From assembly GCF_015645445.1 (NCBI RefSeq), contig NZ_JADOGI010000014.1, positions 1-64,000 on the forward strand: a stretch of 64,000 nucleotides of DNA. Direction: 5' to 3'. Source of the DNA: Nonomuraea cypriaca. GTDB lineage: Bacteria; Actinomycetota; Actinomycetes; Streptosporangiales; Streptosporangiaceae. The notes under the pieces were generated by a model. That model saw only the letters and a list, made by a program, of their open reading frames with translations, was not told the DNA's origin and did not search any database. The translations under genes and the position numbers were made by a program. Of the stretch, positions 17,759 to 37,407 are shown piece after piece; position 1 is the first letter of the stretch; each line of letters starts with the position of its first letter.

Positions 17759-17784
17759 ACAACGGGCTCTTATCAGGAGGACAG

Positions 17785-18936: not shown

Positions 18937-19026
18937 CCGTACGTCCGATAGTGAATCGCCGGGCTCGGCAGTGTCCGGGCCCTGGCGTGAACAGGGGTGC
19001 GTGATCGGGAAGGTGGGGGGCACCGC

Positions 19027-22922: not shown

Positions 22923-23476
22923 CAGGCCCTCCGGAAGTCGGGTCGGAAGGGCCGCCCCTGTGGAGATGGCCGGGCATCTTGAGCCCGGCAAGGGCGACAC
23001 CGATGATCCCTGCGTGACATGGAATCCTCTCGTGGAGGCGGTCATACGGAACTCGCGGTTGTCAGTCCGCGCACGTGCCGCTGTCCGGGCGGCCTCTACC
23101 ATCGTCGGGACGATGTTCATGTCGAGCACGGAGCCGTTGACCCCGGGCCCGCTCGGCGAGATCGAGCGCCGGGTCTCCCTCGGCGTAGGCCAGGTCGGAG
23201 AATGCGCCGGCGCAGCTCAGGGTGCGATATCCGCTGCACCTGACGCTGCCCGAGGCGACGGCCGTCAGGCCCGGATCTGCTCCGCGACCGTCCGCCACGC
23301 ACAACGCGGGGTGTCGCGGAACAGAGGCCGGGCCGACAGCACGATCAACTCAGCTCACACGGTGATCCGTTAACCAGCCGGCCACCTGGTCGAAGGTCGT
23401 CTTTACTGTGTCGCCGTACTGCCCCGGTGGCGTCCGGTAGTGACCGGTCATCGCCATCATGAGCGGCGGCGAACCA
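22923..23476 (-). other. decayed stretch without an intact gene
   Basis: About 550 bases between the reductase and the second bicupin. Minus-strand frames look like worn protein pieces, for example MNIVPTMVEAARTAARARTD and GHYRTPPGQYGDTVKTTFDQ. The latter resembles an alpha/beta hydrolase tail. None is long enough to name. I take the stretch as residue of the decayed cluster. Confidence 0.4.
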
Positions 23477-25154: not shown

Positions 25155-25465
25155 TTCGACTGCAGCTATCTCCCATCTATGAGTCTTCCGGGTGTCCTCG
25201 AAGTAGTGCACGGTGTCGTAGCCCAGGCGCTTGAAGATCCGGTTCTGGACCGAGATCAGGTGCAGGGGTGTTGGCGCCATAGGGCTGGAGCTCGACGAAG
25301 TGAATCTGCACCGTCTGGGTGAGGAACGGCTCGTCGCCGGGACCAATCCGCCACCACCCCGCGACTTCGCGGAGTCGCCGGAGCGGGCGGCGTTGTCACC
25401 GGTGTCGACGACGATCGAGTCGTCGCGTACTCGTGGCGCCGCCAACCAGGAGGTTGAGTGAAGGT
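25155..25465 (-). pseudogene. deleted paralogue of the bicupin at 23523
   Basis: In one frame RVRDDSIVVDTGDNAARSGD matches RVRDDSVVVDDAKVGHSGD of bicupin 2. After a frameshift WWRIGPGDEPFLTQTVQIHF matches its next block. Then QNRIFKRLGYDTVHYFE matches its C-terminus. Most of both cupin barrels is missing, so this is an internal deletion plus a frameshift. It sits between two operators. Confidence 0.7.
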
Positions 25466-25477
25466 CCGGAAGGTAAT

Positions 25478-25498
25478 AAGGTATAAATGTTATACCTT
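25478..25498. promoter_or_regulatory. palindromic operator before FAD reductase copy 2
   Basis: A perfect 9-bp inverted repeat: AAGGTATAA, centre ATG, TTATACCTT. Another AAGGTAAT half-site lies just upstream. It ends 16 bases before the reductase start, so a bound regulator would block transcription or ribosome access. Confidence 0.6.
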
Positions 25499-25514
25499 TG
25501 AAGGAGGTGCGGCG

Positions 25515-26792
25515 GTGAACTCCAGCGACCCGGAACGCGTTGGCACGCTGATCGTGGGCGCCAGTCAGGCTGGGCTGCAGGTGGCGACGAGCCTTCGGGA
25601 GCTGGGCGCGACCGATCCGATCACGCTGATCGGCGGCGAGGCGCGCCCGCCCTACCAGCGGCCACCGCTGTCCAAGCGGTTCCTCCAAGGCGATCTCCCC
25701 GAGGACCGTCTCGCGCTGCGCGGCGAGGGCTTTTACGCGAGCAACGCGATCGAGCTGATCTGTGGGGAATGGGTCGAGACCATCCGTCTCACCGATCCCG
25801 TCACCGGCTCGGGTGAGGCGCTGACGCGCGGTGGCCGGCGGCTCGCCTTCACTGGGCTCGCCCTGACCGTCGGTGGCACCCCTCGGCGCATGCGCGTACC
25901 CGGTCACGGTCTGGCCGGCATCCACTACCTCCGAGACGTCGACGACGCGCTCGCGCTGCGCCACGACCTGGAGGCCGCCGAGCGCGTCGTGGTCGTCGGC
26001 GGCGGATTCGTCGGCCTCGAGGCCGCTGCCGCTGCGCGAGCCGCGGGCAAGGACGTCACCGTGGTGGAGGCCGCCGACCGGCTGATGGCGCGTGCGGTCG
26101 CGCCCGCCGTCTCCGGCTTCTATGCCGAAGCGCACCGGCGCCGTGGCACGGCGGTGCGCCTCGGCGCGACGGTGACCGCGTTCACCGGCGACGAGCACGT
26201 ACAGGGCGTGGAGGTGAGCGATGGCGCCACCCTTCCGGCGGACGTGGTGGTCGTGGGTATCGGCCTGGAGCCTCGCACCGAGCTCGCCGAGCAGCTGGGG
26301 CTGCGGGTGGACCGCGGCATCGTCGTCGACGCCGACGCGAGGACCAGCAACCCGGCGATCGTCGCCGCCGGCGACTGCACCGTTCTTCCCCATCCGCTGA
26401 CCCGGCAGGGCCAGGTGCGGATCGAGTCGGTGCAGAACGCCGTGTCGCAGGCGCAGGTCGCCGCAGCCTCGCTGCTCGGGCTCAGCAGAGAGACGCGTTC
26501 CGTGCCGTGGTTCTGGTCGGATCAGGCCGATCTGAAGCTGCAGATCGCCGGCCTGTCCGCGGGCTACGACTACTGCGTCGTGCGTGGCGATCCGGCGACC
26601 GAGCAGTTCTCGGTGTTCTACTACAAGACCGGCCGACTCATTGCGTCGGACTCCGTCAACGCGCCCCGTGACTACATGGTCGTGCGCAAGGTGCTCGGTG
26701 ATGGGGGCACGCTGCCACCCGACCGGGTCGGTGACGAGTTGGTCTCCCTCAAGGACCTGATGAGCCCCTCGACCTCGACCGCGGTCGCCTGA
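25515..26792 (+). CDS. FAD-dependent NAD(P)H:ferredoxin reductase, copy 2
   Basis: A 425-residue flavoprotein, paralogue of the reductase at 21609. It starts at GTG 25515 after AAGGAGGTG. TLIVGASQAGLQVATSLR is the FAD loop, PPYQRPPLSKRFLQGD the family motif, VVVVGGGFVGLEAAAAA the NAD(P)H loop and VAAGDCTVLPHPL the second FAD motif. The C-terminal domain is complete (FSVFYYKTGRLIASDSVN). With the ferredoxin at 36352 and the Rieske oxygenase at 34992 it would make a three-component ring-hydroxylating system. It is convergent with the class II aldolase gene. Confidence 0.9.
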   Translation: MNSSDPERVGTLIVGASQAGLQVATSLRELGATDPITLIGGEARPPYQRPPLSKRFLQGDLPEDRLALRGEGFYASNAIELICGEWVETIRLTDPVTGSGEALTRGGRRLAFTGLALTVGGTPRRMRVPGHGLAGIHYLRDVDDALALRHDLEAAERVVVVGGGFVGLEAAAAARAAGKDVTVVEAADRLMARAVAPAVSGFYAEAHRRRGTAVRLGATVTAFTGDEHVQGVEVSDGATLPADVVVVGIGLEPRTELAEQLGLRVDRGIVVDADARTSNPAIVAAGDCTVLPHPLTRQGQVRIESVQNAVSQAQVAAASLLGLSRETRSVPWFWSDQADLKLQIAGLSAGYDYCVVRGDPATEQFSVFYYKTGRLIASDSVNAPRDYMVVRKVLGDGGTLPPDRVGDELVSLKDLMSPSTSTAVA

Positions 26793-26803
26793 AGGCCCGC
26801 GCG

Positions 26804-27541
26804 TCAGCCGACGTCCGCGAGACCCTGCAGCTCCAGGAGCCCCACGTGGTGGCGCCACAGCAACTGTTCGTTGAACGCCGCACCGAGATCGGGCAGGTGC
26901 TCACGGTCCTGTTCGGTCACCGCGGACGGCGCGGCACCCAGCTGGGCCAGCTCGACGCTGATCCGCAGCAGCTCGTCGAGCGCGAGCAAATGGCTCAGCA
27001 CCTGTGGTACATCCTGGCCGACCGTTGCGACACCGTGGCCGCGGAGCAGAACGACAGCGGACCCGCCGAGGGCGCGGGCGAGCTCTCCGCCCGCGGCGGC
27101 GGTGCGGACCAGGCCGGCATGGGGGTAGACGGGCACGCCGCCGTCGGCCAGCCGGAACGCCGGGATGTCGTAGGCGCCGAAGATCGGGCGGATCGGCACC
27201 GCCGCGAGCCCGCCGAGAAGGGCCGAGCGGGGATGGGCGTGCAGCACGGAGGCGATGTCCGGGCGTGCGCGCAGGATCTCGGCGTGGATCGGATACTCGT
27301 TGGGCAGCCGGTAGCCGTCGCCGACGTCGCCCTCGTCGTCGAGGGAGACGAGCCGGACGTCGGACACGGTGGTGAAGAGCAGGCCGCGCTCCTGAGGGCC
27401 GCGGCAGCGGACCAGGACCCGGTCCGGGCCGACGCGCAGGCTGATGTGCCCGAGCAGCGGCGTGGTCAGCCCGGCCGCCGCCACGATGCGGCAGCCGAGG
27501 GCCACTGTCCTGCGCAGCTCGTCGAGTTCGTCGGCCATCAT
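26804..27541 (-). CDS. class II aldolase/adducin family protein
   Basis: A 245-residue zinc-type aldolase or decarboxylase of the fuculose-phosphate aldolase superfamily. NEYPIHAEIL (about 81-90) has the catalytic acidic region. HAHP (101-104) and LLRGHGVATVG supply the zinc histidines. Relatives include 5-oxovanillate/4-hydroxyphthalate-type decarboxylases as well as sugar aldolases. It overlaps the upstream decarboxylase-like gene by an ATGA and is the last gene of the operon 31373-26804. In this setting cleavage or decarboxylation of a hydroxy-acid intermediate is likely. Confidence 0.8.
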   Translation of the reverse strand: MMADELDELRRTVALGCRIVAAAGLTTPLLGHISLRVGPDRVLVRCRGPQERGLLFTTVSDVRLVSLDDEGDVGDGYRLPNEYPIHAEILRARPDIASVLHAHPRSALLGGLAAVPIRPIFGAYDIPAFRLADGGVPVYPHAGLVRTAAAGGELARALGGSAVVLLRGHGVATVGQDVPQVLSHLLALDELLRISVELAQLGAAPSAVTEQDREHLPDLGAAFNEQLLWRHHVGLLELQGLADVG

Positions 27542-28524
27542 ATGACGAACGCTTCCAGGCTCTCCGGGGCGAAGATCGCCTCCGGCTCGCGAAGCCGGCG
27601 GGACAGGCCCTGCTCATGGTGATAGCGCAGGAACGTAGCCAGCACGTGCTGGTTCGCCTGCACGCCGTACGACCAGTAGTCGGCGCCGAGCAGGTCACGG
27701 GCCTGCTCGATCTCCTGGATCAGCCACGGCGTCATGAAGCGCAGCGCGGAGGAATCGTAGATCCGTCCGTAGGCGTCGTCGCGCGCGGCCACGAAGGCCT
27801 TGTAGAGCGACTGCGCCACCCAGCGGTGCCGTTCGTAGACGTCGCGGCGGATGACGACGACGTGCATGATCGGGAAGATCCCCGTCGCGGCGAAGTAGGC
27901 ATGTTCCGCCCCGACGACGTCGGGGAAGAGCCGCTTGACACGAGGGTCCCGCCGCTGGAAGGGGCTCGGCACGCGAGGGGTGTAGAGCGCGTCGATCTCG
28001 CCGTTCGCGAGCATGTCGGCCAGGGTCCGACCGGGCGGTGCCGTCTCCATCCGGAACGGTGTCTCGACCCGGCCCTTCTCGATGCGTCCCGGCGACTCCT
28101 GGCCGCCGGAGACGTAGGTGACCGAGTCGAGGGGGACGCCGTGATGCTCGGCGAGGATGCCGCGGATCCACACCCCCGCGGTCAGCTGGAACTCTGGGTT
28201 GCCGACGCGCTTGCCGCACAGGTCGGATGGCTTGTCGATGCCGGCGTCGGCGTTGAGGTAGATGCCGCCGTGCCGGAACATCCGTGAGGTGAAGACGGGC
28301 AGCGCCACGAACGGCGGTGTCTCCGCGTCGAGGGTGGCGACGTACGTCGACAGCGACATCTCCGCCACGTCGAACTCGCGGTGCCGCAGCATCCGGAAGA
28401 AGGTCTCCTCGACCGGGAGCCGCAAGTAGGTCAGATCGATGCCGTCAGGGCGGATGCTGCCGTCCTCGAGGGCACGGGTGCGGTCGTAGTCGCCACAGGC
28501 GAGTGTCAGCGCCACGCGGCCCAT
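27538..28524 (-). CDS. 4,5-dihydroxyphthalate-decarboxylase-like protein (PBP2 fold), copy 1
   Basis: A 328-residue soluble protein of the Pht5-like family, whose members use the type-2 periplasmic-binding-protein fold but are usually cytoplasmic. No signal peptide: it begins [36 protein letters not shown] and GKRVGNPEFQLTAGVWIRG are family blocks. FPIMHVVVIRRDVY is near the hinge. Homologues decarboxylate 4,5-dihydroxyphthalate to protocatechuate, but many are uncharacterised. The gene is one base from the amidohydrolase stop and overlaps the aldolase. A second copy is at 31420 and a deleted one at 21195, so the protein is central to the pathway. Confidence 0.75.
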   Translation of the reverse strand: MGRVALTLACGDYDRTRALEDGSIRPDGIDLTYLRLPVEETFFRMLRHREFDVAEMSLSTYVATLDAETPPFVALPVFTSRMFRHGGIYLNADAGIDKPSDLCGKRVGNPEFQLTAGVWIRGILAEHHGVPLDSVTYVSGGQESPGRIEKGRVETPFRMETAPPGRTLADMLANGEIDALYTPRVPSPFQRRDPRVKRLFPDVVGAEHAYFAATGIFPIMHVVVIRRDVYERHRWVAQSLYKAFVAARDDAYGRIYDSSALRFMTPWLIQEIEQARDLLGADYWSYGVQANQHVLATFLRYHHEQGLSRRLREPEAIFAPESLEAFVI

Positions 28525-28525
28525 G

Positions 28526-29530
28526 TCAGGCTCCCGCCGCGACGCGCTCGAGCCGGGTCGCCAACCGCGGGTAGACCCGCCGCGCGTTCGCCTCGCAGAC
28601 GGCCGCCAGTTCGGCGGGGGACAGGCCCGCGGCCTCGACGTACCTCAGCGTGTCGTCCCACGCGATGCCGGTCTCGGGGTCCGCGCCGCGTACCGCGCCG
28701 AGCATCTCCGAGGCGAAGAGCACGTTCGCCACCGGTACGACGCGGGTCAGCAAGTCGATTCCGGCCTGGTGGTAGACCGCGGTGTCGAAGAAGATGTTGC
28801 CGAGCAGCTCGGCGGGATCCTGCCAGCCGTAGCGGATCGCCAGTCCCCGGTAGCGGCCCCAGTGGTAGGGGACCGCGCCTCCGCCGTGCGGGATGACGAA
28901 GCGCAGGCCGGGGAACCGCCGGAAGAGGTCGCTCTGCAGCAGCTGGACGAAGACATTCGTGTCGGCGTTGAGGTAGTGCGCGCCGAGGGTGTGGAAGTTC
29001 GGGTTGCACGCGGTCGAGACGTGCACCATGGCAGGGACGTCCAGCTCCTGCAGCACCTCGTAGACCGGGAACCACGACTCGTCGGTCAGCGGCAGCCCGG
29101 ACCAGGTGCCGGACGGGTCGGGGTTGAGGCTGCAGCCGACGAAGCCCAGCTCCCCGACCACACGGCGCAGCTCCGCGATCACGCCGTCGAGGTTGCCGTC
29201 GGGCGTCTGCGGCAGCTGCGCGACCGGGGCGAAGTGCTGGGGATAGAGCTCGGAGACCCGGTGGACCAGGTCGTTGGACGCGCGTGCCCAGGCATCGGCC
29301 ACCGCGGGGTCGGGAACGTGGTGCTCCATGCCGGAGGCCCTGGGAGACAACAGCATCACGTCCCCGCCGCGCTCACCCAAAATGCGCACCTGGTTGCCCT
29401 CGACGCTCTCCCGCAGCCGGTCGTCGGAGATCGGGGCCGGTACGGCGTCGCCGCCGGCGAGCTGGGCGTTGCGGAAGGCCTGGAGCGCGGGCGGCGCGGT
29501 GGTGTAGTGGCCGTGGACGTCGATGATCAC
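28526..29530 (-). CDS. amidohydrolase-2 family enzyme, LigJ/ACMSD-like
   Basis: A 334-residue metal-dependent enzyme. [13 protein letters not shown] gives the HxH metal motif at residues 6 and 8. [13 protein letters not shown] and [14 protein letters not shown] hold further ligands, and the terminal ANARRVYP is a family signature. Close relatives are 4-oxalomesaconate hydratase (LigJ) of the protocatechuate 4,5-cleavage path and aromatic decarboxylases of the ACMSD group. The GTG start overlaps the stop of the RraA-like gene (GTGA). An RraA/LigK-like aldolase next door fits a hydratase-aldolase pair, but the decarboxylase alternative is open. Confidence 0.8.
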
Positions 29531-30231
29531 GCTTGCTCCCTGCGGTAGGTCTCGTAGCCGACGTAGCGCAGCCCCTTGTGCTCGAGCCGCTCGCGCATAG
29601 CGTTCACGTCCAGCCCGAGCTCGCCGGCGGCGTACCGCCGGCGCGAGCGCGCCTCCTTCTCCTCGCGCGCCTTCGAGGCCGCGAGCACGGTCGCCGCCTC
29701 GGTCCGGCGGACGACCACCACGCCGTCATCGTCGGCGACGATCACGTCACCGGGCTCGACCAGCCGCCCGGCGCAGACGACCGGCACGTTGACCGCGCCG
29801 AGGGTCTCCTTGACGGTGCCCTCGGCCGAGACGCACTTCGACCAGGCAGGGAAGCCTATCGCCTCGAGCTCGGCGACGTCGCGCACGCCGGCGTCGATCA
29901 CCAGGCCCCGCACCTCGCGGGCCTTGAGCGAGATCGCGATCAGTTCGCCGAAGTAGCCGGCATCCGACGGCGAGGTCGGGGCCACCACGAGGATATCGCC
30001 GGGCCGGCACTGCTCGACGGCGACGTGGATCATCCAGTTGTCGCAGGGCGGCACGCTGACCGTGACCGCCGTGCCGGAGATGCGGGTGCCGCGGTAGACC
30101 GGGGAGATGGAGGACGCCAGCAGCCCGGTGCGGCCCTGCGCCTCATGGACCGTGGCGACGCCGTACTCGCCGAGGCCGTCGCGCAGGTCGGCCGGCGTGC
30201 GCGGCGGATCGGTGACGACGATGCCGTTCAA
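29527..30231 (-). CDS. RraA-like / 4-carboxy-4-hydroxy-2-oxoadipate aldolase-like protein
   Basis: A 234-residue member of the RraA/LigK fold family. [21 protein letters not shown] and [16 protein letters not shown] are the blocks where the aldolases bind Mg2+ and pyruvate enolate (D-x20-R-D pattern). [13 protein letters not shown] is the terminal signature. Such enzymes split 4-carboxy-4-hydroxy-2-oxoadipate to pyruvate and oxaloacetate. The start is taken as TTG 30231, whose bases overlap the stop of the dehydrogenase gene; no better codon is near. Together with the LigJ-like neighbour it suggests the end of a meta-cleavage route. Confidence 0.8.
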
Positions 30232-31373
30232 CGCGTCACCGCCCCGCCGGCCTGGCCGATCAGCTCGGGCATGAGTGAGATGTGGATCGCGTCCTGCTCG
30301 GTCTCTCCGGCCAGCACGCGGATGGCGTGGTCGACCTGGTCGATGCCGTAGCGGTGGGTGGCCAGCTTCTCCAGCGGGAAGCGGCGGGAGGCGAGCTGGT
30401 CGAGGGCGAGCTCGCATGCCTTGAACGAGTGACCGCGAGCGCTCTTGATGGTGATCGCCTTCTCGGTCAGCTTCTTGACCGGGAAGGCGGGGAAGGCGGC
30501 CAGCTCGCCCTGGATGAGGAGCGTGCCCTCCCGCCGTACCAGCGCGTCGATCCCGAGCAGCATGGGTCCGGTCCCGGCGCGCGAGGTGCAGTCGAGCACG
30601 AAGTCGACCCCACGGCCGCCGGTGAGGTCCATGACCTTCTCCAGCGGGTCCTGCTGCAGGATGTCGATGACGTCGTCGGCGCCGAGCTCGCGGGCCAGGT
30701 CGAGCCGCGTCTTGTCACGGGTGGTGCCGCTGACGATGATCCGCGAGGCGCCGGCCTGCTTGCAGGCCACCACCTGGGAGAGGCCCTGCTGGCCCGGGCC
30801 CTGGATCAGCACGGTGTCGCTGTAGCCCACTCCGGCCGCCCGCAGCGCCCACTCGATCCCGTTCGACAGCGGAGTGACGAGACCGGCGAGCTCGGCGGTG
30901 ACGGTTTCGGGCACACGGTGGAGCACGGCGTTCCAGGGCAGGTACATGTACTCACCGAAACCGCCCCACAGGCTGCCCGGGTTCTCCGCCGAGGTGTAGC
31001 CGTAGCGGCGCGCGTCGGGGTTGGTGCGCCAGTCGGTGGCCTCGCAGTGGCGGTATTCGCCGATGCGACACCACTCGCAGGTGAAGCAGCCGACATAGTG
31101 CTCGACGAAGACCCGGTCGCCCTCGCCCAGGCCGTGTCGCTCCTTGAACCGGGCGCCGGCCTGGGCGATCACGCCGACGTTCTCGTGGCCCATGATCACC
31201 CGGCCGTGGATCATGCTCGGCGGGCTGGCGTACATCTTCACGTCGGTGCCGCAGATGCCTGCGACCTCCACCTGCAACAGGGCCGAATCCTCGTCGATCG
31301 CCGGGAGAGGGAACTCCTGCATCTCGGTCGTGCCGGGCGCGACGCGCACCGCCGCGCGCACCGTGTCGCTCAT
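30228..31373 (-). CDS. zinc-dependent medium-chain alcohol dehydrogenase
   Basis: A 381-residue NAD(P)-dependent dehydrogenase. ICGTDVKMY and MGHENVGVI carry catalytic zinc ligands. [21 protein letters not shown] holds the four-Cys structural zinc site. [14 protein letters not shown] is the nucleotide loop, in which the usual GxGxxG reads GPGQQG. AAAGGAGAGAT lies before the ATG at 31373. It is the first gene of a five-gene operon with RraA-like, amidohydrolase, decarboxylase-like and aldolase genes, tightly overlapped. It may oxidise a cis-diol or hydroxymethyl intermediate. The divergent promoter region with operators is just upstream. Confidence 0.85.
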
Positions 31374-31390
31374 ATCTCTCCTTTTGGCAA

Positions 31391-31413
31391 AATGGTAATG
31401 CCATTAGTACCAT
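31391..31413. promoter_or_regulatory. candidate GntR operator in the divergent promoter
   Basis: ATGGTA at 31392 and TACCAT at 31408 form a spaced inverted repeat. AATGGTAATGCCATT inside it is itself near-palindromic. It lies 18 bases from the dehydrogenase start and 6 from the opposite gene's GTG, so one site could control both directions. Confidence 0.5.
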
Positions 31414-31419
31414 AGACCA

Positions 31420-32352
31420 GTGCGCTACGTAACTCTCACCCGAGCCCAAGGCAACAACCGAGCCGTCATCGACGGGAGCGTCGTCCCCCAGGGCTTCCCG
31501 CTCGAGTTCGCCCAGGAGGCGGCCCTCGTCCAGGGCTTCCGCAAGATGGTCCGCAACCTGGCGTACGACGTCAGCGAGATGGCGCTGACGACCTACCTGT
31601 GCGCCCGCGAGCACGGCGTCCGCTTCAGCGCGCTGCCGGTCTTCCTGGTCCGCGGCTTCCACCACGGCGCGATCCTGGTGCGCCGCGACGGCACGATCAC
31701 CGGCGCCAAGCAGTTGGCCGGCCGCCGGGTCGGCGTCAACCGCGGCTACACGGTCACCACGGGCGTCTGGGGTCGGGCGATCTTGGGCACCGAGGGCGGG
31801 CTCGACCTCGACTCGGTCACGTGGGTGCGCTCCGGTGACGAACACGTCGCCGACTACCGCCAGCCCGCGAACGTCGTCTCGGCCCCCTCGGGCCGCACCC
31901 TGATCGACCTGCTGAAGGCGGGTGAGCTGGACGCGGTGATCGGCGTCGACACGGACGACCCGGACGTCACGCCGCTCATCGCCAACCCCGGGAAGGCCGG
32001 CTTCGCCGCCCTGCGCGAGCGCGGCCTCTACCCGATCAACCATCTCGTCGTCGTCAAGGACGACGTCCTGGCCGCCGAGCCCGGGATCGCCGCCGCCGTC
32101 TTCGAGGCCTTCGCCGAGTCCAAGCGACGCTACGTCGAGCGGCTCCGCTCCGGGACGGTGGAGAACGCCAGCGACCGGATGTACGCCCGCGTGCTGGCCG
32201 AGACCGGCGCGGACCCGTTGCCGTACGGGCTCGAGCCCAACCGGGCCGTCCTGGAGGAGCTCATGGGCCACGCCGTGCGGCAGCACATCCTCGCCGCGCC
32301 GGTCCGGCTCGAAGACCTCTTCGCACCCTCGACCCTCGACCTGGCGGGCTGA
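31420..32352 (+). CDS. 4,5-dihydroxyphthalate-decarboxylase-like protein (PBP2 fold), copy 2
   Basis: A 310-residue soluble protein related to 27538. MRYVTLTRAQGNNRAVIDGS opens it without a signal peptide. FRKMVRNLAYDVSEMALTTY, LPVFLVRGFHHGAIL, GRRVGVNRGYTVTTGVWGR and YPINHLVVVKDD are family blocks. It starts at GTG 31420 with no ribosome site; the promoter or operator region ends a few bases before, so the mRNA may be leaderless. The RpiB-like gene follows after three bases. Two divergent decarboxylase-like copies may act on different intermediates, or one may be a ligand-binding partner. Confidence 0.75.
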   Translation: MRYVTLTRAQGNNRAVIDGSVVPQGFPLEFAQEAALVQGFRKMVRNLAYDVSEMALTTYLCAREHGVRFSALPVFLVRGFHHGAILVRRDGTITGAKQLAGRRVGVNRGYTVTTGVWGRAILGTEGGLDLDSVTWVRSGDEHVADYRQPANVVSAPSGRTLIDLLKAGELDAVIGVDTDDPDVTPLIANPGKAGFAALRERGLYPINHLVVVKDDVLAAEPGIAAAVFEAFAESKRRYVERLRSGTVENASDRMYARVLAETGADPLPYGLEPNRAVLEELMGHAVRQHILAAPVRLEDLFAPSTLDLAG

Positions 32353-32355
32353 GAC

Positions 32356-32799
32356 ATGCGAGTCGCGATCGCGGCTGACCACAACGGCGTCCTGCTCAAG
32401 AGCCGACTGGCCGACTGGCTCATGGCGCGCGGCCACCTGGTCGACGACCTCGGTGCCTACACGACCGACATCGTCGACTATCCGCCACTGTGCGCCGAGG
32501 TCGGGCGGCGGGTGGCCACGGGGCACGACGACCTCGGCATCGTCATCGGCGGAAGCGGCCAGGGCGAGGTGATCGCCTGCAACAAGATGCGCGGCGTGCG
32601 CGCCGGTCTGGCCTACAGCCGCTTCGCGGTCGAGATCTCCCGTGGCAACAACGATGCCAACGTGATGGTGCTCGGCACCAAGGTCCTCGGCGACGACGAA
32701 GCCGAGGAACTGCTCGCGCTGTGGCTCGGCACGCCCTTCAAGGGCGGTGTGCACGCGGCCCGCGTGGCGCAGATCAGCGCACTCGAACAGCAGGCCTGA
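32356..32799 (+). CDS. RpiB/LacA/LacB family isomerase
   Basis: A 147-residue enzyme of the ribose-5-phosphate isomerase B family. MRVAIAADHNGVLLK has the N-terminal Asp/His motif. GIVIGGSGQGEVIACNKMRGVRAG has Ser where many RpiB proteins carry the catalytic Cys. SRGNNDANVMVLG is the substrate loop. Family members isomerise pentose or hexose phosphates. An aldose-ketose type isomerisation of a pathway hydroxy-keto acid is a possible recruited role. It is read with the decarboxylase-like gene upstream and converges on the alpha/beta hydrolase. A Cys-to-Ser change at the catalytic position would argue against normal RpiB chemistry. Confidence 0.8.
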   Translation: MRVAIAADHNGVLLKSRLADWLMARGHLVDDLGAYTTDIVDYPPLCAEVGRRVATGHDDLGIVIGGSGQGEVIACNKMRGVRAGLAYSRFAVEISRGNNDANVMVLGTKVLGDDEAEELLALWLGTPFKGGVHAARVAQISALEQQA

Positions 32800-32802
32800 T
32801 CA

Positions 32803-33657
32803 TCATCTGTCGTGGGACCGGAGGAACTCCAGGATGCGGGCCGGTGCCGTCTCCGCCGTCTGCTCGATCACCGGGACGTCCCAGTACTCGTGGACGGGCA
32901 GGCACTCCTCCAGGTAGCGCGCGGCCGAGGGCGCGTGCGAGGCGTCCTGGCCGGGCACGATCAGCGCCGGCACGTCGAGCGCCATCAGCTCCTCCGGCTC
33001 CACACCCGGGACGGTGTCGCGGTCGAATAGCCCGCGCACACTGCCCGTCACGATCAGGTCGTAGCGGGCCTGGTCAAGGGCGGCGTAGGCTGCGGCGAAC
33101 ACCTCGTCGGTGCGCAGCGGAGCCGCCCACGGACCGACGCGCGGGTCCTTGCTGAAGCCGGCCGTCGTGGCGCGGGCCAGCTCGACGACCGCGCCCAGCC
33201 CCTGCTCGGCGACGAACGCGAGGTGCCGCACGAAGCGGCGGTGCTGGGCCATCCGGTAGCGGGGCCCGCCGGCGGGGGAGAAGAGCACCATGCCGCGGAC
33301 CCGGTCCGGGGCCTCGACGGCGAGCGCGGCAGCCGTCGAGCAGCCCACGCAGCCCCCCATCGTGTGGGCGGAGTCGATGCCGAGGTGGTCGAGCAGCCCG
33401 AGAGCCTGGCCGACGTACTTCTTCCAGGTGAGCCGCTCGACCTTGCCGCCCGACTGGGCGGCCTCCCGCCGGTCGAAGACCACGCAGGTGTAGTGCGGCG
33501 CGAACGCGTCGACGAAGCCCAGGTCCCGGTAGCGGCTGAAGCTGGTCCAGTTCTCCAGGCCGGAGTCGAAGCCGCCCGGGCTGAACATCAACAGCGCCGG
33601 ACCCTCGCCCACTGTCTCGTAGCGGGTGCGGATGCCGTCGAGGTCGACGAAGGGCAT
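32803..33657 (-). CDS. alpha/beta hydrolase with Cys at the nucleophile elbow
   Basis: A 284-residue alpha/beta-hydrolase-fold protein. The nucleophile elbow reads MGGCVGCS, so the G-x-Nuc-x-G position is Cys103 instead of Ser, as in dienelactone hydrolase. GQDASHAP holds the probable acid Asp. No GHxx motif is clear near the C-terminus; the tail is CLPVHEYWDVPVIEQT. This could be a hydrolase for an activated lactone or C-C bond, or a non-hydrolytic member. It starts at 33657, nine bases after the PanB-like gene, as the last gene of the operon 36275-32803. Confidence 0.75.
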   Translation of the reverse strand: MPFVDLDGIRTRYETVGEGPALLMFSPGGFDSGLENWTSFSRYRDLGFVDAFAPHYTCVVFDRREAAQSGGKVERLTWKKYVGQALGLLDHLGIDSAHTMGGCVGCSTAAALAVEAPDRVRGMVLFSPAGGPRYRMAQHRRFVRHLAFVAEQGLGAVVELARATTAGFSKDPRVGPWAAPLRTDEVFAAAYAALDQARYDLIVTGSVRGLFDRDTVPGVEPEELMALDVPALIVPGQDASHAPSAARYLEECLPVHEYWDVPVIEQTAETAPARILEFLRSHDR

Positions 33658-33665
33658 GGAGGCTC

Positions 33666-34496
33666 CTAGATCTTGATGCCGCCGCGGATCTGCCGACCGG
33701 CGCGGATGTCGGCCGCGCACTGGCTGAGCGCGTCGTAGGCGAGCCGGGCGACGTTGAGGTAGGTGTCCGGCGCCCTGTCGAGGTTGTCGGCCGAGTATCC
33801 GAGCGCCGCGGTCGTCATCCTGATCCGGCCGTCGAGCCACGGCCCGCCGCCGAAGCCGCCCAGCACAGGGATCGACACCGCCTCGACCACGGCGGGCCCG
33901 ACGACGGGACCGGAGTTGGTGAAGTTGAGCGCGACGGCGCCGGCCGACTCCAGCCGCCTCGCCTCGCCGACCAGCTCGTCCAACATCTCCTCGGGAACCT
34001 GCACGGAACTGGCCGCCGAGTACTCGATGCCGTACTTGAGCGCGGTCTGCGGAGTGATCCCGAACTGCGCGAAGACGGGGATGCCGGCGCGGGTCACCGC
34101 TTCCACGGCCTCGGGGAAGTCCGCGGCGCCGTCGAGCTTGACCAGGTCGACGCCGGCCTCCTTGACCAGCCGGATGGCGGCGCGGACGGCGCCGGCCAGG
34201 CCCTGCTGAAGCGGGCCGAACGGGAAGTCGCAGCTCAGCAGCGCGCGGCTGACGCCTCGCCGCACCGCCTTCGCGACGACGAGCATCTCCTCCATCGTGA
34301 TCTCCAGCGGATGCGGCTGACCCCAGAGGTTCACCCCGACGGTGTCGCCGACCGAGACGATCTCGACGCCGACCCGGTCGGCGATGCGCGCCATCTGGTA
34401 GTCCCAGGCGACGAGGCACACGCTCTTCTCGCCGGCGGCCTTCATCGCCTGCAGCGACGGAACGGTCACCTTGCCGGGAGCGGCCGCGGCGCTCAT
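33666..34496 (-). CDS. ketopantoate hydroxymethyltransferase-like (PanB-fold) enzyme
   Basis: A 276-residue protein of the PanB/PEP-mutase-like superfamily. VGDTVGVNLWGQPHPLEITMEEM resembles the PanB metal and substrate site (the Asp of GDT). ALLSCDFPFG has the second metal region, VDLVKLDGA the catalytic Lys block and GGFGGGPWLDGR the C-terminal block. Authentic PanB adds a hydroxymethyl group to 2-oxoisovalerate. Here the Rieske and hydrolase neighbours suggest a retro-aldol or aldol step on a pathway keto acid. Its ATG overlaps the stop of the unknown gene at 34493 (ATGA), so the two products probably work together. Confidence 0.7.
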   Translation of the reverse strand: MSAAAAPGKVTVPSLQAMKAAGEKSVCLVAWDYQMARIADRVGVEIVSVGDTVGVNLWGQPHPLEITMEEMLVVAKAVRRGVSRALLSCDFPFGPLQQGLAGAVRAAIRLVKEAGVDLVKLDGAADFPEAVEAVTRAGIPVFAQFGITPQTALKYGIEYSAASSVQVPEEMLDELVGEARRLESAGAVALNFTNSGPVVGPAVVEAVSIPVLGGFGGGPWLDGRIRMTTAALGYSADNLDRAPDTYLNVARLAYDALSQCAADIRAGRQIRGGIKI

Positions 34497-34972
34497 GCGC
34501 GGGTCGCCCTGAGCAGCTCGAAGAGGTCGTCCTCCTCGGCGGGGACCAGCAGGATGCGGGCATAGGGCCGGAGCGCGAACAGCGCCTCACTGGTCAACTG
34601 CCCCGGCGTGACGGCCAGGCCCGCCGTCATGATGCCGCGAACCTTGCAGGCGGCACCGATGGTCGCGGCAGCCTCGGTGTTCTCACCATTGGTGGAGACG
34701 AGTACGAGGGTGTTGCTGTCCTCCAGCTCCCCGACGAGCGGCACCCTCTCACCGGACATGGTGACGAGGCTGTGCCCCGGGTCGACGGCCGAGTAGAACC
34801 TCGCCTGCGCCCACTGCGTCTGCGCCGCCTGGCGCACGATCTCCCCGGCCGCGGCGTCCAGTGCCACCACCCGGGTGTTCCGGGCGGCAGCCAGGGGATA
34901 GTCGATGCGGAAGGCCGCCTCCTCGGCGGTCGCCGCGCGAGCGCAGCTACTGACCAGGCGGGATTGTGTCAT
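34493..34972 (-). CDS. unrecognised protein coupled to the PanB-like gene
   Basis: A 159-residue soluble protein with alternating strands and helices. TRVVALDAAAGEIVRQAAQ and NTLVLVSTNGENTEAAATIG look like Rossmann-type beta-alpha units. VRGIMTAGLAVTPGQ and ILLVPAEEDDLFELLRATRA follow. It distantly resembles the C-terminal alpha/beta domain of pyruvate kinase or SIS-type domains, but I cannot assign a family. It lies between the Rieske gene and the PanB-like gene, with an ATGA overlap into the latter. A ligand-binding or regulatory subunit for PanB-like is a reasonable guess only. Confidence 0.6.
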   Translation of the reverse strand: MTQSRLVSSCARAATAEEAAFRIDYPLAAARNTRVVALDAAAGEIVRQAAQTQWAQARFYSAVDPGHSLVTMSGERVPLVGELEDSNTLVLVSTNGENTEAAATIGAACKVRGIMTAGLAVTPGQLTSEALFALRPYARILLVPAEEDDLFELLRATRA

Positions 34973-34991
34973 CGGTGTACTCCTCGGGATG

Positions 34992-36275
34992 TCAGACAGT
35001 GGTCTGCGGGACGCCAGGCTTGGCGACCATGGCCTCGCCGATGCCTTCGACGAACGACTGGTCGGCTGGCAGCACGATGGCGACGGAGCGCACCTTCTGG
35101 TCCTGCGTGCGGTTGCCGACCGGATCGGCGCCCTCCTGCGCGAGCGCCAGCGCCGCCTTGCGGAGCTTCTGACGTGCCTTGATGATGCCGGCGTCGGTGG
35201 CGACCAGGCGCTCCTTGGTGCGGTCGACGATCGGGCCCATCGACTCCTGCAGCGAGGCGTCCTGGAGGGCGATGCCCTTGATCCCGGAGTACGTCTCGCC
35301 GCGGCGCTGGGCCTCGCGGTCCATCAGGTAGTCGTTGTCCTTGTTGGCGAGCGGACGGTAGTTCTCGTCGTTCGCGCTGTGGACGCCCATGCCGGCGCGC
35401 ATGGCCGCGACCTCGGCCTCGGTGAGCGGGCGGGTCGGGTGGTAGTCGAAGCTCCAGGCCCAGCAGTTCTCGTCGTCGATCGGCACCCAGAAGTGGCCGT
35501 GCATCGGGTGGTCGCCGCGCGGCGGCACCATCGTGAAGTTGGGCAGCACCCACGGCGTCACCCGCCAGTAGTAGTGGCCCTCCTCGGCGTTGCGCCGGGC
35601 GCCGATCAGCAGGCCGCCCTCGTAGTCGACGACCTCGAAGAACGGCTTGAGGTCGCCCTTGTTGTAGGCGTTGCCCCTCGACCCCTTGAACAGCGGGTCG
35701 CTGTCGAGGCTGCCGGAGTGCAGGAAGGTGACGTGGCTGGAGTCGATGCCGCCCTCGAGGGCCTGCAGCCAGTTGCACTCCTGGAACCGCTTGGAGGTGT
35801 ACGCCTGCCCCTCCGGCACGGTGATGAACTCCCACTCCGGCAGCGGCGGCCGCTTGTCCGGGTCGCCGAGGTAGGCCCACAGCACGTCACCGCGCTTGAT
35901 CATGGGATAGGACTTCAGCTTCACATTGGCGCAGAAGTTGCTGCTCTCGGGCTCGCTGGGCACCTCGATGGCCTGGCCGGTGTAGTCGTACTTCCAGCCG
36001 TGGTAGGGGCAGCGCAGGCCCCCTTCCTCGTTGCGGCCGAACCAGAGCGAGACACCGCGGTGGGCACAGAACTCGTCCATCAGGCCGTAGCGGCCCTCGG
36101 AGTCGCGGAAGGCGATCAGCCGCTCCGAGAGGACCTTGACGCGGACCGGCGGACAGTTGTTCGCCGAGAGCTCCTCCGCCAGCAACACCGGCTGCCAGTA
36201 GCGGCGGAACAGGTCGCCCATCGGGGTGCCCGGTCCGGTCTGGGTCAGCAGCTCGTTGATCTCGGTGCGCAGCAT
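34992..36275 (-). CDS. Rieske non-heme iron ring-hydroxylating oxygenase, phthalate 4,5-dioxygenase-like
   Basis: The 427-residue catalytic subunit of an aromatic-ring oxygenase. MLRTEINELLTQTGPGTPMG is typical of the phthalate dioxygenase (OphA2/Pht3) group. The Rieske cluster is C70-A-H72 and C89-P-Y-H92. The mononuclear iron site includes His181 and His186 in IDSSHVTFLH. Length fits single-component alpha3-type oxygenases. It takes electrons from a [2Fe-2S] ferredoxin and FAD reductase, both in this region (36352, and 25515 or 21609). It is the first gene of a four-gene operon ending at 32803. Mono- versus dioxygenation, and the substrate, cannot be told from sequence. Confidence 0.9.
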   Translation of the reverse strand: MLRTEINELLTQTGPGTPMGDLFRRYWQPVLLAEELSANNCPPVRVKVLSERLIAFRDSEGRYGLMDEFCAHRGVSLWFGRNEEGGLRCPYHGWKYDYTGQAIEVPSEPESSNFCANVKLKSYPMIKRGDVLWAYLGDPDKRPPLPEWEFITVPEGQAYTSKRFQECNWLQALEGGIDSSHVTFLHSGSLDSDPLFKGSRGNAYNKGDLKPFFEVVDYEGGLLIGARRNAEEGHYYWRVTPWVLPNFTMVPPRGDHPMHGHFWVPIDDENCWAWSFDYHPTRPLTEAEVAAMRAGMGVHSANDENYRPLANKDNDYLMDREAQRRGETYSGIKGIALQDASLQESMGPIVDRTKERLVATDAGIIKARQKLRKAALALAQEGADPVGNRTQDQKVRSVAIVLPADQSFVEGIGEAMVAKPGVPQTTV

Positions 36276-36317
36276 ATGCGGTCCTTTCGCCCCCTAAGGG
36301 GATAACTATCAGACCAT

Positions 36318-36331
36318 TTGCCAGCTGGCAA
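36318..36331. promoter_or_regulatory. perfect 14-bp palindrome upstream of the Rieske gene
   Basis: TTGCCAGCTGGCAA lies 43 bases before the Rieske start, next to ATCAGACCATT at 36309, a half-site like those of the GntR regulon. A dimeric regulator site is likely. It also sits between the ferredoxin stop and the Rieske start. Confidence 0.5.
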
Positions 36332-36351
36332 TGGCCGGGAGATGGTGGATG

Positions 36352-36675
36352 CTAGGCCTGGGCCGGGGGCACGTCGACGACCAGACCGTCGAGGTCGTCG
36401 GTGAGCTCGATCTGGCAGCCGAGCCGGCTGGTGGCGCGTCGGTCCTCGACGCCGAGGTCGAGCAGATCGTCCTCGAGGTCGCCGGGACCTCCTACGCGAC
36501 CTGCGAAATCGTCGCGCACCCAGACGTGGCACGTGGCGCAGGAGTTGTTGCCCCCGCACTCGCCGATGATTCCCGGCACGCCGTTGCGGACCGCGGCGGA
36601 CATCACCGTCTCTCCAGCTGCGGCTTCGACGACGCGCTCGTCGCCCATGGTGCTGACGTAGACCACTTTCGGCAC
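36352..36675 (-). CDS. [2Fe-2S] ferredoxin, adrenodoxin/putidaredoxin type
   Basis: A 107-residue electron carrier. The cluster ligands are Cys40, Cys46, Cys49 (ECGGNNSCATC) and Cys87 (LGCQIE), matching the C-x5-C-x2-C-x37-C pattern of oxygenase ferredoxins. It starts at GTG 36675 after AGAAGGAGG. It is the probable link between the FAD reductases and the Rieske oxygenase just downstream. The GGCCTAACC operator at 36695 precedes it. A fragment of a paralogue survives at 21358. Confidence 0.9.
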   Translation of the reverse strand: MPKVVYVSTMGDERVVEAAAGETVMSAAVRNGVPGIIGECGGNNSCATCHVWVRDDFAGRVGGPGDLEDDLLDLGVEDRRATSRLGCQIELTDDLDGLVVDVPPAQA

Positions 36676-36694
36676 GTACGCCTCCTTCTGGGAG

Positions 36695-36709
36695 AATGGC
36701 CTAACCAAT
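36695..36709. promoter_or_regulatory. candidate GntR operator before the ferredoxin gene
   Basis: AATGGCCTAACCAAT resembles the site at 37327 read on the other strand (AATGGTCTAACCAATT), with one change in the left half. It lies 20 bases before the ferredoxin start. Confidence 0.5.
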
Positions 36710-36778
36710 ATACCTAGAATCGCATCGGGTAGGTCAACCTTTGCCACGCGCGGGAGCTGAAGTGCCGTGGTGGGCTGC

Positions 36779-37222
36779 CTACGACTGTTCCGCCGGGACC
36801 CGGGCGACGGAATATCGGCTGACCCGGCTGCCTCGCAGGTAGTGGAGGCCCGCAGAGGCGATCGAGACGAAGCCGCCCAAGGACAACGCGGCGACCGGAC
36901 CCAGAAACCGGCGACCCAGCCGATGTCGACGTCGTCCAGCGCGGGCCCGCCGCGCGAAGTCATCTGGTGGATCGCCGACACCCGGCCTCACATCGCGTCC
37001 GGAGCTCCAGCTGCGCCGCCGCCTGGCGTTTCGTCGTCGCCAGCGTGTCGAAAGCGCCGATCAGCAGGCCGGGCGTGAGTGCGAGCGGCAACCAGGGCGA
37101 CTGGGCCGGCGCCAGGGTGGCGACGCCGTAGCCGGCCGAGGCCAGCACCGCCAGGGCGGCGGCGACGACACCGACCAGCAGAGGGTGAAGTCGTGATGGC
37201 GCAGGGCCGGCGGCAGTTTCAT
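36779..37222 (-). pseudogene. broken MFS transporter gene
   Basis: MKLPPALRHHDFTLCW after a good GGAG resembles the start of the MFS protein at 19027. After a shift, LLIGAFDTLATTKRQAA matches its LLGAFDAMATTIRHAA. SAIHQMTSRGGPALDDVDIG matches its FYQMSSRGGPAIGDVVVG. GPVAALSLGGF and YLRGSRVSRYS give the C-terminus. At least three frameshifts and a deletion of about 250 residues are needed. It lies between the ferredoxin gene and the second GntR gene. Confidence 0.7.
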
Positions 37223-37280: not shown

Positions 37281-37343
37281 AATGATAAGACCATTGCCGG
37301 ATAGGGGGCCGTTAGGCTGCTCTAACAATTGGTTAGACCATTT
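37281..37343. promoter_or_regulatory. two operators before the second FCD-GntR gene
   Basis: AATGATAAGACCATT at 37281-37295 and AATTGGTTAGACCATTT at 37327-37343 share the GGT/AGACCATT half-sites of the regulon. They lie 65-127 bases upstream of the regulator's start, which suggests autoregulation. Confidence 0.6.
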
Positions 37344-37407
37344 CTTGGTACGATGTAGCCGGGGGAGGACCGAGATCGACGGACGAGATCGTGAAGGGGG
37401 CGCCGGC

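Follow-up and report, generated by a model that had tools for sequence, protein, structure and literature searches.

Gene content and organisation

The source organism, Nonomuraea cypriaca, is a soil actinobacterium. The window analysed here is the whole stretch of 64,000 nucleotides; within it, the gene set in question spans about 30 kb (Table 1). The preliminary description of this DNA had marked only 25515..36675 as a candidate organic-acid, probably aromatic, catabolic region. The unit extends further, over about 7.6-38.2 kb, and its members recur near the same Rieske gene elsewhere. Much of it is found again in distant actinobacterial relatives and in plant-associated rhizobia. Searches against Pfam, NCBIfam and PDB recovered every gene class named in that description, and its three operons were also recovered: 36981 to 32803 (-), 31373 to 26804 (-) and 31420 to 32799 (+). 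Overlaps of 4 nt are present at the PanB/34493, LigJ/LigK and PhtC/PhtD27 junctions. PhtD27 starts 1 nt past the LigJ stop, the hydrolase ATG lies 8 nt past the PanB stop, and the LigK TTG at 30231 overlaps the dehydrogenase stop. The longest LigK ORF is 29527-30417, with the family match from residue 64 onward. Genes for the EutA-like protein, a cupin, two solute-binding proteins, an ABC permease, an MFS transporter, a phosphoglycerate-mutase-like protein, a second reductase, a bicupin and two GntR regulators each turn up in 6 to 10 of the 22 stretch sets. ORF 24671-25087 had matches in none of the 22 sets and probably does not belong to the unit as a gene.

Table 1. Features of the unit, with positions in the window and supporting evidence (score vs cut-off where a family model applies)
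Feature	Position	Strand	Evidence
EutA-family ATPase-like protein, 551 aa	7596..9251	-	PF06277 365.8 bits; 10/22 stretch sets
cupinA, bicupin-like, overlaps EutA	9248..10396	-	Nearest profile match 3bu7; 10/22 sets
GntR/FCD regulator	10309..11394	+	9/22 sets; cross-matches other GntR
Solute-binding protein	13470..14801	+	9/22 sets; cross-matches SBP 14750..15946
Solute-binding protein (SBP)	14750..15946	+	9/22 sets; cross-matches SBP 13470..14801
ABC permease	16031..17758	+	PF00528; 7/22 sets
ABC ATPase	17779..18936	+	PF00005, TOBE_2; outside the conservation table
MFS transporter	18997..20313	+	6/22 sets
Phosphoglycerate-mutase-like protein	20461..21279	-	NF010718 388.1 vs 366; 7/22 sets
FAD ferredoxin reductase	21609..23129	-	9/22 sets; cross-matches other reductase
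bicupin23, HGHxxxE...H-type motif in first domain	23523..24518	-	7/22 sets
FAD ferredoxin reductase	25458..26792	+	9/22 sets
Class II aldolase family, PhtC-type (3,4-dihydroxyphthalate decarboxylase)	26804..27541	-	NF053537 306.6 vs 200
PhtD27, 4,5-dihydroxyphthalate-decarboxylase-like	27538..28524	-	9jp7 288 bits
LigJ-like 4-oxalomesaconate hydratase	28526..29530	-	2gwg 401 bits, 6dxq 393 bits
LigK-type CHA aldolase	29527..30231	-	TIGR02798 320.8 vs 304.5; NF006731 346.7 vs 179
Zn-dependent medium-chain dehydrogenase	30228..31373	-	PF08240/PF00107; 16/16 cluster sets
PhtD31, divergent 4,5-dihydroxyphthalate-decarboxylase-like	31420..32352	+	9jp7 114 bits; 16/16 cluster sets
RpiB-like isomerase	32356..32799	+	NF004051 143.8 vs 135
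Alpha/beta hydrolase, GGC[VM]GCS elbow	32803..33657	-	Alignment of 7 members
PanB-like protein	33666..34496	-	Without a His and a Glu present in the genome's other PanB
34493 protein, Rieske-associated, unknown family	34493..34972	-	16/16 cluster sets, themselves found through 34493
Rieske oxygenase, isophthalate-dioxygenase-like, Arg253	34992..36275	-	Structure, alignment and clade comparisons
Fer2 ferredoxin	36352..36981	-	Other clusters match only from residue 70-105 of this ORF onward, which makes an internal start probable
GntR/FCD regulator	37282..38175	+	9/22 sets

Conservation in actinobacteria and rhizobia

Sixteen cluster sets, 11 actinobacterial and 5 rhizobial, were chosen through the 34493 protein. 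All 16 contain a seven-gene core of the Rieske oxygenase, the 34493-type protein, the Zn-dehydrogenase, the second PhtD-like protein, the Cys-elbow hydrolase, the LigJ-like and the RraA/LigK-like protein. The rhizobial cores are located on plasmids. Of the window genes outside the span, 16 served as controls; 13 of these had no match at all, and the other 3 had two weak matches each. A profile search added five actinobacterial genomes with the core. The unit is rare: counting the own genome, 6 of 394 genomes sampled from the class carry it. The preliminary description depended on a conserved neighbourhood, and the seven-gene core was found in 11/11 other actinobacterial and 5/5 rhizobial sets.

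Three operons with some genes facing each other, and the central-metabolism families PanB, RpiB and phosphoglycerate mutase (PGM), could indicate several unrelated catabolic operons that were joined only by the reader. This is very improbable: it is contradicted by the finding that the genes, compared with the controls, are conserved together in other genera and in a second phylum, and further PanB, RpiB and PGM copies exist elsewhere in the genome.

In rhizobia, identities are 31-37% for the PhtD31 counterparts, 28-33% between the class II aldolases and the window PhtC-type protein, and 29-33% between the RraA protein and the window LigK. Because of this last value, LigK activity in rhizobia is only a possibility; the equivalog score is that of the window protein. 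The stretches of Rhizobium WYJ-E13, S. cellulosae, G116 and Phyllobacterium yielded no clear orthologue of PhtD27. Tricarboxylate-type transporters adjoin the rhizobial cluster.

Genes for PanB-like and RpiB-like proteins were found in actinobacteria alone and not in the five rhizobial sets. The PanB-like, 34493 and RpiB-like proteins had been regarded as the key combination of a dedicated, undescribed catabolic pathway. Conservation across phyla, together with the LigJ/LigK and Rieske assignments, supports a dedicated unit, but this combination is not its core. The 34493 protein follows the Rieske oxygenase, staying with its gene in sets without PanB. It had no Pfam or NCBIfam match, and its predicted structure is a low-confidence Rossmann-like model. 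Literature searches turned up no published route that uses these genes together; the unit is apparently undescribed.

The PanB-like protein belongs to the family of the ketopantoate hydroxymethyltransferase PanB and scores below the NCBIfam cut-offs (177 vs 272, 142 vs 208). Compared to the genome's other PanB, AHLGL is changed to AQFGI and VVLE to NFT. The His and Glu are replaced in 7/7 aligned PanB-like members; the Asp and Lys motifs are kept. The RpiB-like protein passes the subfamily models (NF004051, Table 1; TIGR00689, 129.2 vs 88.3) and fails the equivalogs TIGR02133 (132.8 vs 168.2) and TIGR01120 (118.2 vs 138.65). The PGM-like protein is a paralogue (64%) of another genomic copy. 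Together with the RpiB-like protein it looks like an ordinary phospho-sugar enzyme, a poor fit to any proposed step.

The Rieske oxygenase and the lower pathway

The Rieske oxygenase contains the motifs CAH 70, CPYH 89 and DSSHVTFLH 178, which correspond to the Rieske CxH/CxxH and the mononuclear Fe ligands with the bridging Asp. The preliminary description called it phthalate-dioxygenase-like; the best solved relative is the isophthalate dioxygenase (IPDO) 9ina, with 48.5% identity and 444 bits vs 38% and 250 bits for phthalate dioxygenase. For IPDO, a published study describes a bridging Asp and the pocket residues G172, T175, V178, R234, I246, F249, H257, I294 and F333 (PMC12445078). Mapped onto the window enzyme, the G, the V, R234 and H257 are kept, T is replaced by S, I246 and I294 by V, and F333 by I. 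In the alignment, Arg253 replaces the active-site F249. The full pocket set is not present in the window Rieske enzyme. The arginine is present in 19/19 clade members: 14/14 alignment rows (12 cluster members and 2 Caballeronia) and the 5/5 added genomes. Phenylalanine occupies the position in 7/7 isophthalate-type rows and arginine in 0/7; these rows are IPDO and six plasmid relatives labelled isophthalate-type in this analysis. The Arg clade had a support of 100/99 in a tree with long branches for IPDO, phthalate dioxygenase, RO-CH34, Peribacillus and R. fascians.

The unit shares with iphA2CBA1 of Comamonas testosteroni the homologous Rieske oxygenase, the carboxylate-facing Arg, a His and a nearby dehydrogenase gene. 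Unlike iphA2CBA1, it has the Arg in place of Phe249, a Fer2 ferredoxin and an FAD reductase, and it adds the 34493, decarboxylase-like, LigJ/LigK, hydrolase and PanB/RpiB/EutA/cupin genes.

The LigJ-like amidohydrolase is closer to LigJ (Table 1) than to LigY (165 bits) or gamma-resorcylate decarboxylase (59 bits), and LigK exceeds its equivalog cut-off. Both assignments are convincing at the sequence level, so the pathway probably ends with the transformation of 4-oxalomesaconate to pyruvate and oxaloacetate. Since the genome also carries a second gallate/syringate-type locus, which has GalB-like and RraA-like genes of its own, this end point may belong to shared metabolism and not be diagnostic. 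By score, LigJ and LigK resemble those of the protocatechuate 4,5-cleavage and gallate pathways; the upper part of the unit is unrelated to these. Like the phthalate pathways (Pht/Oph; 4,5- and 3,4-dihydroxyphthalate decarboxylases), the unit has two PhtD-like proteins and a PhtC-like protein, the latter above its family cut-off. Unlike them, it combines an isophthalate-type oxygenase, two divergent PhtD-like proteins (PhtD31 with altered motifs relative to the solved enzyme 9jp7) and LigJ/LigK.

Ring opening and the proposed pathway

The absence of LigAB from the window, noted before, held: queries with LigA and LigB from the genome's own locus on contig C112 gave no match. Across the window and the 16 cluster sets, these queries yielded no LigA match and one LigB-family match, in G031 (30.6% to the own LigB), on the same contig and about 9 kb from the bicupin. 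A conventional phthalate/trimellitate-type funnel would form 3,4- or 4,5-dihydroxyphthalate by Rieske oxygenase and dehydrogenase and protocatechuate by PhtC/PhtD; a LigAB-type 4,5-cleavage encoded elsewhere would yield 4-oxalomesaconate for the cluster LigJ/LigK. The PhtC and PhtD families, the G031 gene and LigB-family genes somewhere in 12/12 actinobacterial genomes tested are in agreement, as are 31-kb Caballeronia stretches that keep the Rieske-R253, dehydrogenase, 34493-type and PhtD27 genes and in which LigJ/LigK were not found. However, the single LigB-family match and the missing LigA in the sets, together with G101, G291 and G135, which had no LigB match covering the start of the model, make the funnel unlikely. 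It also needs less than two PhtD-like, one PhtC-like and the PanB/RpiB/EutA/cupin proteins.

The preliminary description had suggested the bicupins for ring opening. They are possible candidates for this step, with the LigB-family genes of the 12/12 actinobacterial genomes as an alternative. cupinA/EutA occur in 10/16 cluster sets and the bicupin in 7/16; for neither cupin was a homologue found in the stretches of G116, G118, G135 and Microbacterium or on the whole Rhizobium WYJ-E13 plasmid. The HxH and a later His of cupinA are invariant in 8/8 aligned rows, and its nearest profile is the gentisate 1,2-dioxygenase 3bu7 (E 4e-7). The EutA-like protein shares PF06277 with the ethanolamine ammonia-lyase reactivase and differs in its pairing with a cupin. 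EutB was not found in the own genome. It is encoded in 2/16 genomes or records, G446 (another contig) and the S. terangae plasmid (about 150 kb away), and was not found in 9/11 EutA-bearing genomes or plasmids, three of the nine being plasmids only. Paired EutA-like and cupin genes form an additional module, for the most part in genomes where EutB was not found. Speculatively, a Ni- or Co-dependent bicupin, serviced by the EutA-family ATPase, might open a hydroxylated isophthalate derivative made by the Arg-bearing Rieske oxygenase with the 34493 accessory protein. This new ring-opening chemistry is rather improbable; in it, EutA would reactivate a non-cobalamin enzyme or act as an ATPase at its metal site.

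The Cys-elbow hydrolase offers a different ring opening. Its GGC[VM]GCS elbow is invariant in 7/7 aligned members, the gene occurs in all 16 sets, and among solved structures its profile comes closest to esterases and meta-cleavage-product hydrolases (E 5e-13 and weaker). On a non-benzenoid substrate, e.g. a pyridine or pyrone polycarboxylate, Rieske hydroxylation could be followed by hydrolytic opening, and therefore no dioxygenase would be needed; the seven-gene core contains no recognised ring-cleavage dioxygenase in 16/16 sets. The closest solved Rieske relative, however, acts on isophthalate, and a dioxygenase may be encoded elsewhere in the genomes. This explanation is improbable.

The best explanation for the span 7.6-38.2 kb, with a probability of about 0.5, is a horizontally spread unit for the catabolism of an isophthalate-type aromatic acid with an extra acidic or polar group. 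Candidate substrates are, in order, 5-hydroxyisophthalate, lignin-derived hydroxy- or methoxy-isophthalates such as 5-carboxyvanillate, and a benzenetricarboxylate. The sequence itself shows the gene content and conservation, the LigJ/LigK and Rieske relationships and the Arg substitution. The substrate, the order of steps, the ring-opening enzyme and what the PanB-like, RpiB-like, PGM-like, EutA-like and 34493 proteins do are inferred. Uptake would proceed by ABC and MFS transporters in N. cypriaca and by tricarboxylate-type transporters in rhizobia. The Rieske oxygenase with ferredoxin and reductase may dihydroxylate the substrate at a carboxyl-bearing carbon. Dehydrogenation and CO2 loss by the Zn-dehydrogenase, aided by the 34493 protein, would follow. 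PhtD/PhtC-type decarboxylases may strip surplus carboxyls to a gallate- or protocatechuate-level compound. The ring would be opened by the cupins where present, else by an enzyme encoded outside the core, followed by hydrolysis by the Cys-elbow hydrolase. LigJ would hydrate 4-oxalomesaconate, and LigK would cleave the product into pyruvate and oxaloacetate.

The diagnostic substitution in the Rieske oxygenase narrows the substrate question to a small compound panel. The 34493 protein represents a family that accompanies these Rieske oxygenases and has neither a Pfam nor an NCBIfam model. The EutA-like proteins suggest a role of EutA outside ethanolamine metabolism. The unit could show by what route condensed-lignin isophthalates or polycarboxylates are used by bacteria of soil and nodules.

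Gene content and conservation of the unit

Gene families were assigned from Pfam, NCBIfam and PDB searches, and all families named in the preliminary description were found in the window. The three operons it proposed were also borne out. Overlaps of 4 nt occur at three junctions: PanB/34493, LigJ/LigK and PhtC/PhtD27. In the longest LigK ORF, the NCBIfam match begins at residue 64, and a TTG at that point overlaps the ADH stop.

Operons and features in the window
Feature	Position	Strand
Operon 1: Fer2-Rieske-34493-PanB-like-hydrolase	36981 to 32803	minus
Operon 2: ADH-LigK-LigJ-PhtD27-PhtC	31373 to 26804	minus
Operon 3: PhtD31-RpiB-like	31420 to 32799	plus
EutA-like	7596-9251	minus
cupinA, bicupin-like	9248-10396	minus
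bicupin23, bicupin-like	23523-24518	minus
Short piece like bicupin23	25270-25359	minus
PhtD27, decarboxylase-like	27538-28524	minus
LigJ28, LigJ-like	28526-29530	minus
LigK29, RraA/LigK-like	29527-~30231	minus
ADH, Zn-dehydrogenase	30228-31373	minus
PhtD31, decarboxylase-like	31420-32352	plus
RpiB32, RpiB-like	32356-32799	plus
Hydrolase, Cys-elbow alpha/beta	32803-33657	minus
PanB33, PanB-like	33666-34496	minus
34493 protein	34493-34972	minus
Rieske oxygenase	34992-36275	minus
Very long ORF, 1979 aa	47511-53450	minus

For comparison with 22 stretch sets, 28 ORFs were taken from the candidate unit and 16 genes from the rest of the window. Of the sets, 16 are cluster sets (11 from actinobacteria, 5 from rhizobia), two come from Caballeronia and four from Rhodococcus or Arthrobacter. 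The 16 cluster sets were chosen with the 34493 protein as bait, so its presence in all of them is by selection. The stretches (22 to 68 kb) were centred on the cluster: an absent gene may lie beyond, and distant controls are disfavoured. Cross-matches occur within the pairs PhtD27/PhtD31, two reductases, two SBPs, two MFS and two GntR proteins, and low-identity matches need not be orthologues.

Conservation of the neighbourhood, on which the preliminary description had made its proposal depend, was found. Seven genes occur in 16/16 cluster sets, actinobacterial and rhizobial: Rieske, ADH, 34493, PhtD31-like, hydrolase, LigJ and RraA/LigK. The PanB-like gene is present in 11/11 actinobacterial and 0/5 rhizobial sets, the RpiB-like gene in 10/11 and 0/5, bicupin23 in 7/11 and 0/5, and EutA with cupinA in 6/11 and 4/5. 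The Streptomyces cellulosae counterpart of bicupin23 is split and only 37-44% identical. Two Caballeronia plasmids carry the Rieske gene, PhtD27 (56-57%), ADH (44-46%) and a homologue of 34493 (E 2.5e-20 and 3e-17 with the profile); their 31-kb stretches showed no LigJ, LigK or hydrolase. Among the 16 outside genes, 13 had no match in the 22 sets; the other three matched weakly (25-34%), twice each.

The unit had been placed at 25.5-36.7 kb. This part holds, with limits that are too narrow: because the unit ORFs recur in the stretch sets and the outside genes almost never do, the unit spans about 7.6 to 38.2 kb (28 unit ORFs and 16 outside genes against 22 sets). ORF 24671-25087, with matches in 0/22 sets, was rejected as a member; ORF 21358-21618 has matches in 3/22. 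ORF 17773-18288 (minus; hyp17) is antisense to the ABC ATPase and was not counted as a gene. A phosphoglycerate-mutase-like gene travels with the unit in 7/22 sets and shares 64% identity with another copy in the genome.

Several remnants were seen. The short window piece resembles bicupin23 (73% over 30 residues), as does a piece at G000:C112:49495-49863 (minus) in the same genome (96% over 123 residues); both are apparently fragments from duplication or rearrangement. In Streptomyces carpinensis some cluster genes occur a second time in a partly decayed state: pieces of a Rieske gene adjoin RpiB-like and PhtD31-like genes (L041 16551-17116), and two in-frame stops interrupt a copy of cupinA (G098:C5:19636-20658). 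The very long ORF lies outside the unit and served as a control query.

The Rieske oxygenase and the 34493 protein

Among solved structures, isophthalate dioxygenase (9ina) is closest to the Rieske oxygenase, with 444 bits and 48.5% identity; RO-CH34 follows with 330 bits and phthalate dioxygenase with 250. According to the review PMC13040137, isophthalate genes are validated in two Comamonas strains only. Pocket residues of isophthalate dioxygenase, as given in PMC12445078, map onto the window enzyme, which retains a His and the Arg that faces the carboxylate and has Arg253 at the position of Phe249. This arginine occurs in 14/14 rows of its clade and in five additional genomes. Elsewhere the position holds Phe (7/7 isophthalate-type rows), Gln (RO-CH34) or Asn (phthalate dioxygenase). 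In a 23-row tree the Arg clade is supported at 100/99, with a long-branch warning for rows outside it. An extra positive charge, as predicted for this pocket, hints at a substrate bearing a further acidic or polar group.

The Rieske protein matched 107 plasmid records, 13 of which were examined (5 first met via the 34493 search and 8 more). In Rhodococcus and Arthrobacter plasmid modules (L019-L021, L025, L026), a 56-59% identical Rieske protein is encoded together with a Zn-dehydrogenase, a VanB-type reductase and a protein of ~170 residues; ABC transporter genes are interposed in R. fascians. Two Rhodococcus modules examined in detail adjoin a two-subunit dioxygenase and a PdxA-type dehydrogenase, neighbours that fit terephthalate operons. 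The Arthrobacter 68b module is near a two-subunit dioxygenase, that of A. crystallopoietes close to the alpha subunit of a dioxygenase at the stretch edge. The plasmid modules look like uncharacterised actinobacterial isophthalate operons. Four of the five ~170-residue proteins (R. fascians left out) matched the 34493 profile at E 0.06-0.25 and are borderline relatives at best.

The 34493 protein, a small protein, had no Pfam or NCBIfam match. It is present in 4/98 relatives and 6/394 genomes of the class, own genome counted in both. One contig scan of named genomes, which detects close relatives only, found it in two Nonomuraea, S. carpinensis, S. cellulosae and Microbacterium; the plasmid search found it in Sinorhizobium (3), Phyllobacterium and Rhizobium. 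A role as partner of the PanB-like protein was rejected: the 34493 gene stays with the Rieske gene in sets that lack PanB. Its predicted structure (mean pLDDT 67.5) had no Foldseek match at E <= 0.001. The top matches were weak, namely 2aml (E 2e-3), presumably a SIS-type sugar-isomerase-like protein, and then FtsZ chains (E 1e-2).

Lower pathway and ring opening

Against two LigJ structures, LigJ28 reached 401 and 393 bits; its score was 165 bits for LigY and at most 59 for decarboxylases. LigK29 is above the NCBIfam equivalog cut-off. Enzymes of these families transform 4-oxalomesaconate via 4-carboxy-4-hydroxy-2-oxoadipate into pyruvate and oxaloacetate. LigJ28 followed by LigK29 would be expected to take 4-oxalomesaconate to the same products. 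The rhizobial RraA-family gene shares only 29-33% identity with the window LigK, so a non-orthologous aldolase may catalyse this step in rhizobia. Against the solved 4,5-dihydroxyphthalate decarboxylase 9jp7, PhtD27 reached 288 bits and PhtD31, with altered motifs, 114 bits. The class II aldolase scores above the cut-off of the 3,4-dihydroxyphthalate decarboxylase model. The hydrolase elbow GGC[VM]GCS is invariant in 7/7 aligned members, and the closest solved structures to its profile are esterases and meta-cleavage-product hydrolases.

Compared with the other PanB of the genome, PanB33 keeps the VGD, CDFPF and KLDG stretches and has lost two residues, His in AHLGL and Glu in VVLE, which we take to be metal-binding and catalytic positions. 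The loss is common to 7/7 aligned cluster members. With these residues lost, PanB33 is unlikely to make ketopantoate; the other PanB copy also speaks against a pantothenate enzyme. The GGSGxGE stretch found in the other RpiB of the genome is conserved in RpiB32.

Rhizobial clusters adjoin genes for an alpha-hydroxy-acid oxidase and a ThDP enzyme in Rhizobium (L012 22980-24468) and for a ThDP enzyme and an NAD(P) oxidoreductase in Phyllobacterium (L048 5026-7698). The Phyllobacterium oxidoreductase shares 58% identity with one encoded next to the Rieske gene in genome G446. These neighbouring genes possibly form an upstream funnel.

No recognised ring-cleavage dioxygenase was found within the seven-gene core. 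The preliminary description had considered the bicupins for ring opening. Both bicupin-like proteins, cupinA and bicupin23, are accessory members with gentisate 1,2-dioxygenase as the closest solved structure (E 4e-7 and 5e-6), and both keep His-rich motifs, read here as putative metal-binding sites. As a universal ring-opening enzyme they fail, since homologues are missing from some cluster-bearing hosts: cupinA was not found anywhere in Microbacterium Bi121, nor on the Rhizobium WYJ-E13 plasmid. Homologues of cupinA (E <= 1e-10) occur in 4/72,556 plasmid records; all four bear the cluster, and each has two cupinA copies. LigB-family genes exist somewhere in 12/12 actinobacterial genomes. Given these genes and the hosts without cupinA, the ring-cleavage enzyme may be encoded outside the core. 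In genome G031, a LigB-family gene is ~9 kb from the bicupin (G031:C723; L087 12625-13224); its counterpart in the own genome is on another contig (G000:C584; L040 9503-10102). A gallate/syringate-type locus of the own genome (G000:C112, ~157.5-162.3 kb; L038 7533-12255), separate from the unit, encodes a PIG-L (GalB-like) hydratase, RraA, GCV_T (folate-dependent O-demethylase-like), LigA, LigB and an alpha/beta hydrolase.

Accessory genes and relation to known pathways

The EutA-like gene and cupinA are either together or both absent in the stretch sets. Among 11 genomes or plasmids with the EutA-like gene, 9 are without EutB (6 genomes, 3 plasmids); the remaining two have it on another contig (G446) or ~150 kb off (Sinorhizobium terangae plasmid). 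EutB was not found in the own genome, and on that ground the EutA-like protein was rejected as an ethanolamine enzyme there. Nickel or cobalt handling genes are located near EutA/cupin clusters: NikR and HoxN/HupN/NixA in Phyllobacterium (L010 4695-6297), HupE/UreJ in S. terangae (L049 30551-31144), and CbiM, CbiQ and an ABC ATPase in G446 (L076 13588-16180). The Caballeronia NK8 plasmid, on which cupinA was not found, has a CobW-type GTPase (L022 13588-14505). In these distant hosts the genes belong to unrelated families; none was found among the Pfam-scanned window genes. The possible association with nickel or cobalt handling is a lead only.

The CC-licensed literature searched (titles and beginnings of abstracts) showed no matching cluster, which does not imply absence from print, and neither the combination of EutA, cupin and Rieske nor a wider one with hydroxymethyltransferase, Rieske and dihydroxyphthalate genes. 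Dihydroxyphthalate decarboxylase and 4-oxalomesaconate hydratase appeared together in one genome announcement only. Parts of the unit are similar to isophthalate, phthalate or gallate/protocatechuate pathways; as a whole it corresponds to none of these. The complete route, ring opening above all, is unproven. Support is moderate for an isophthalate carrying a further acidic or polar group as the substrate, and strong for a conserved, dedicated catabolic unit.
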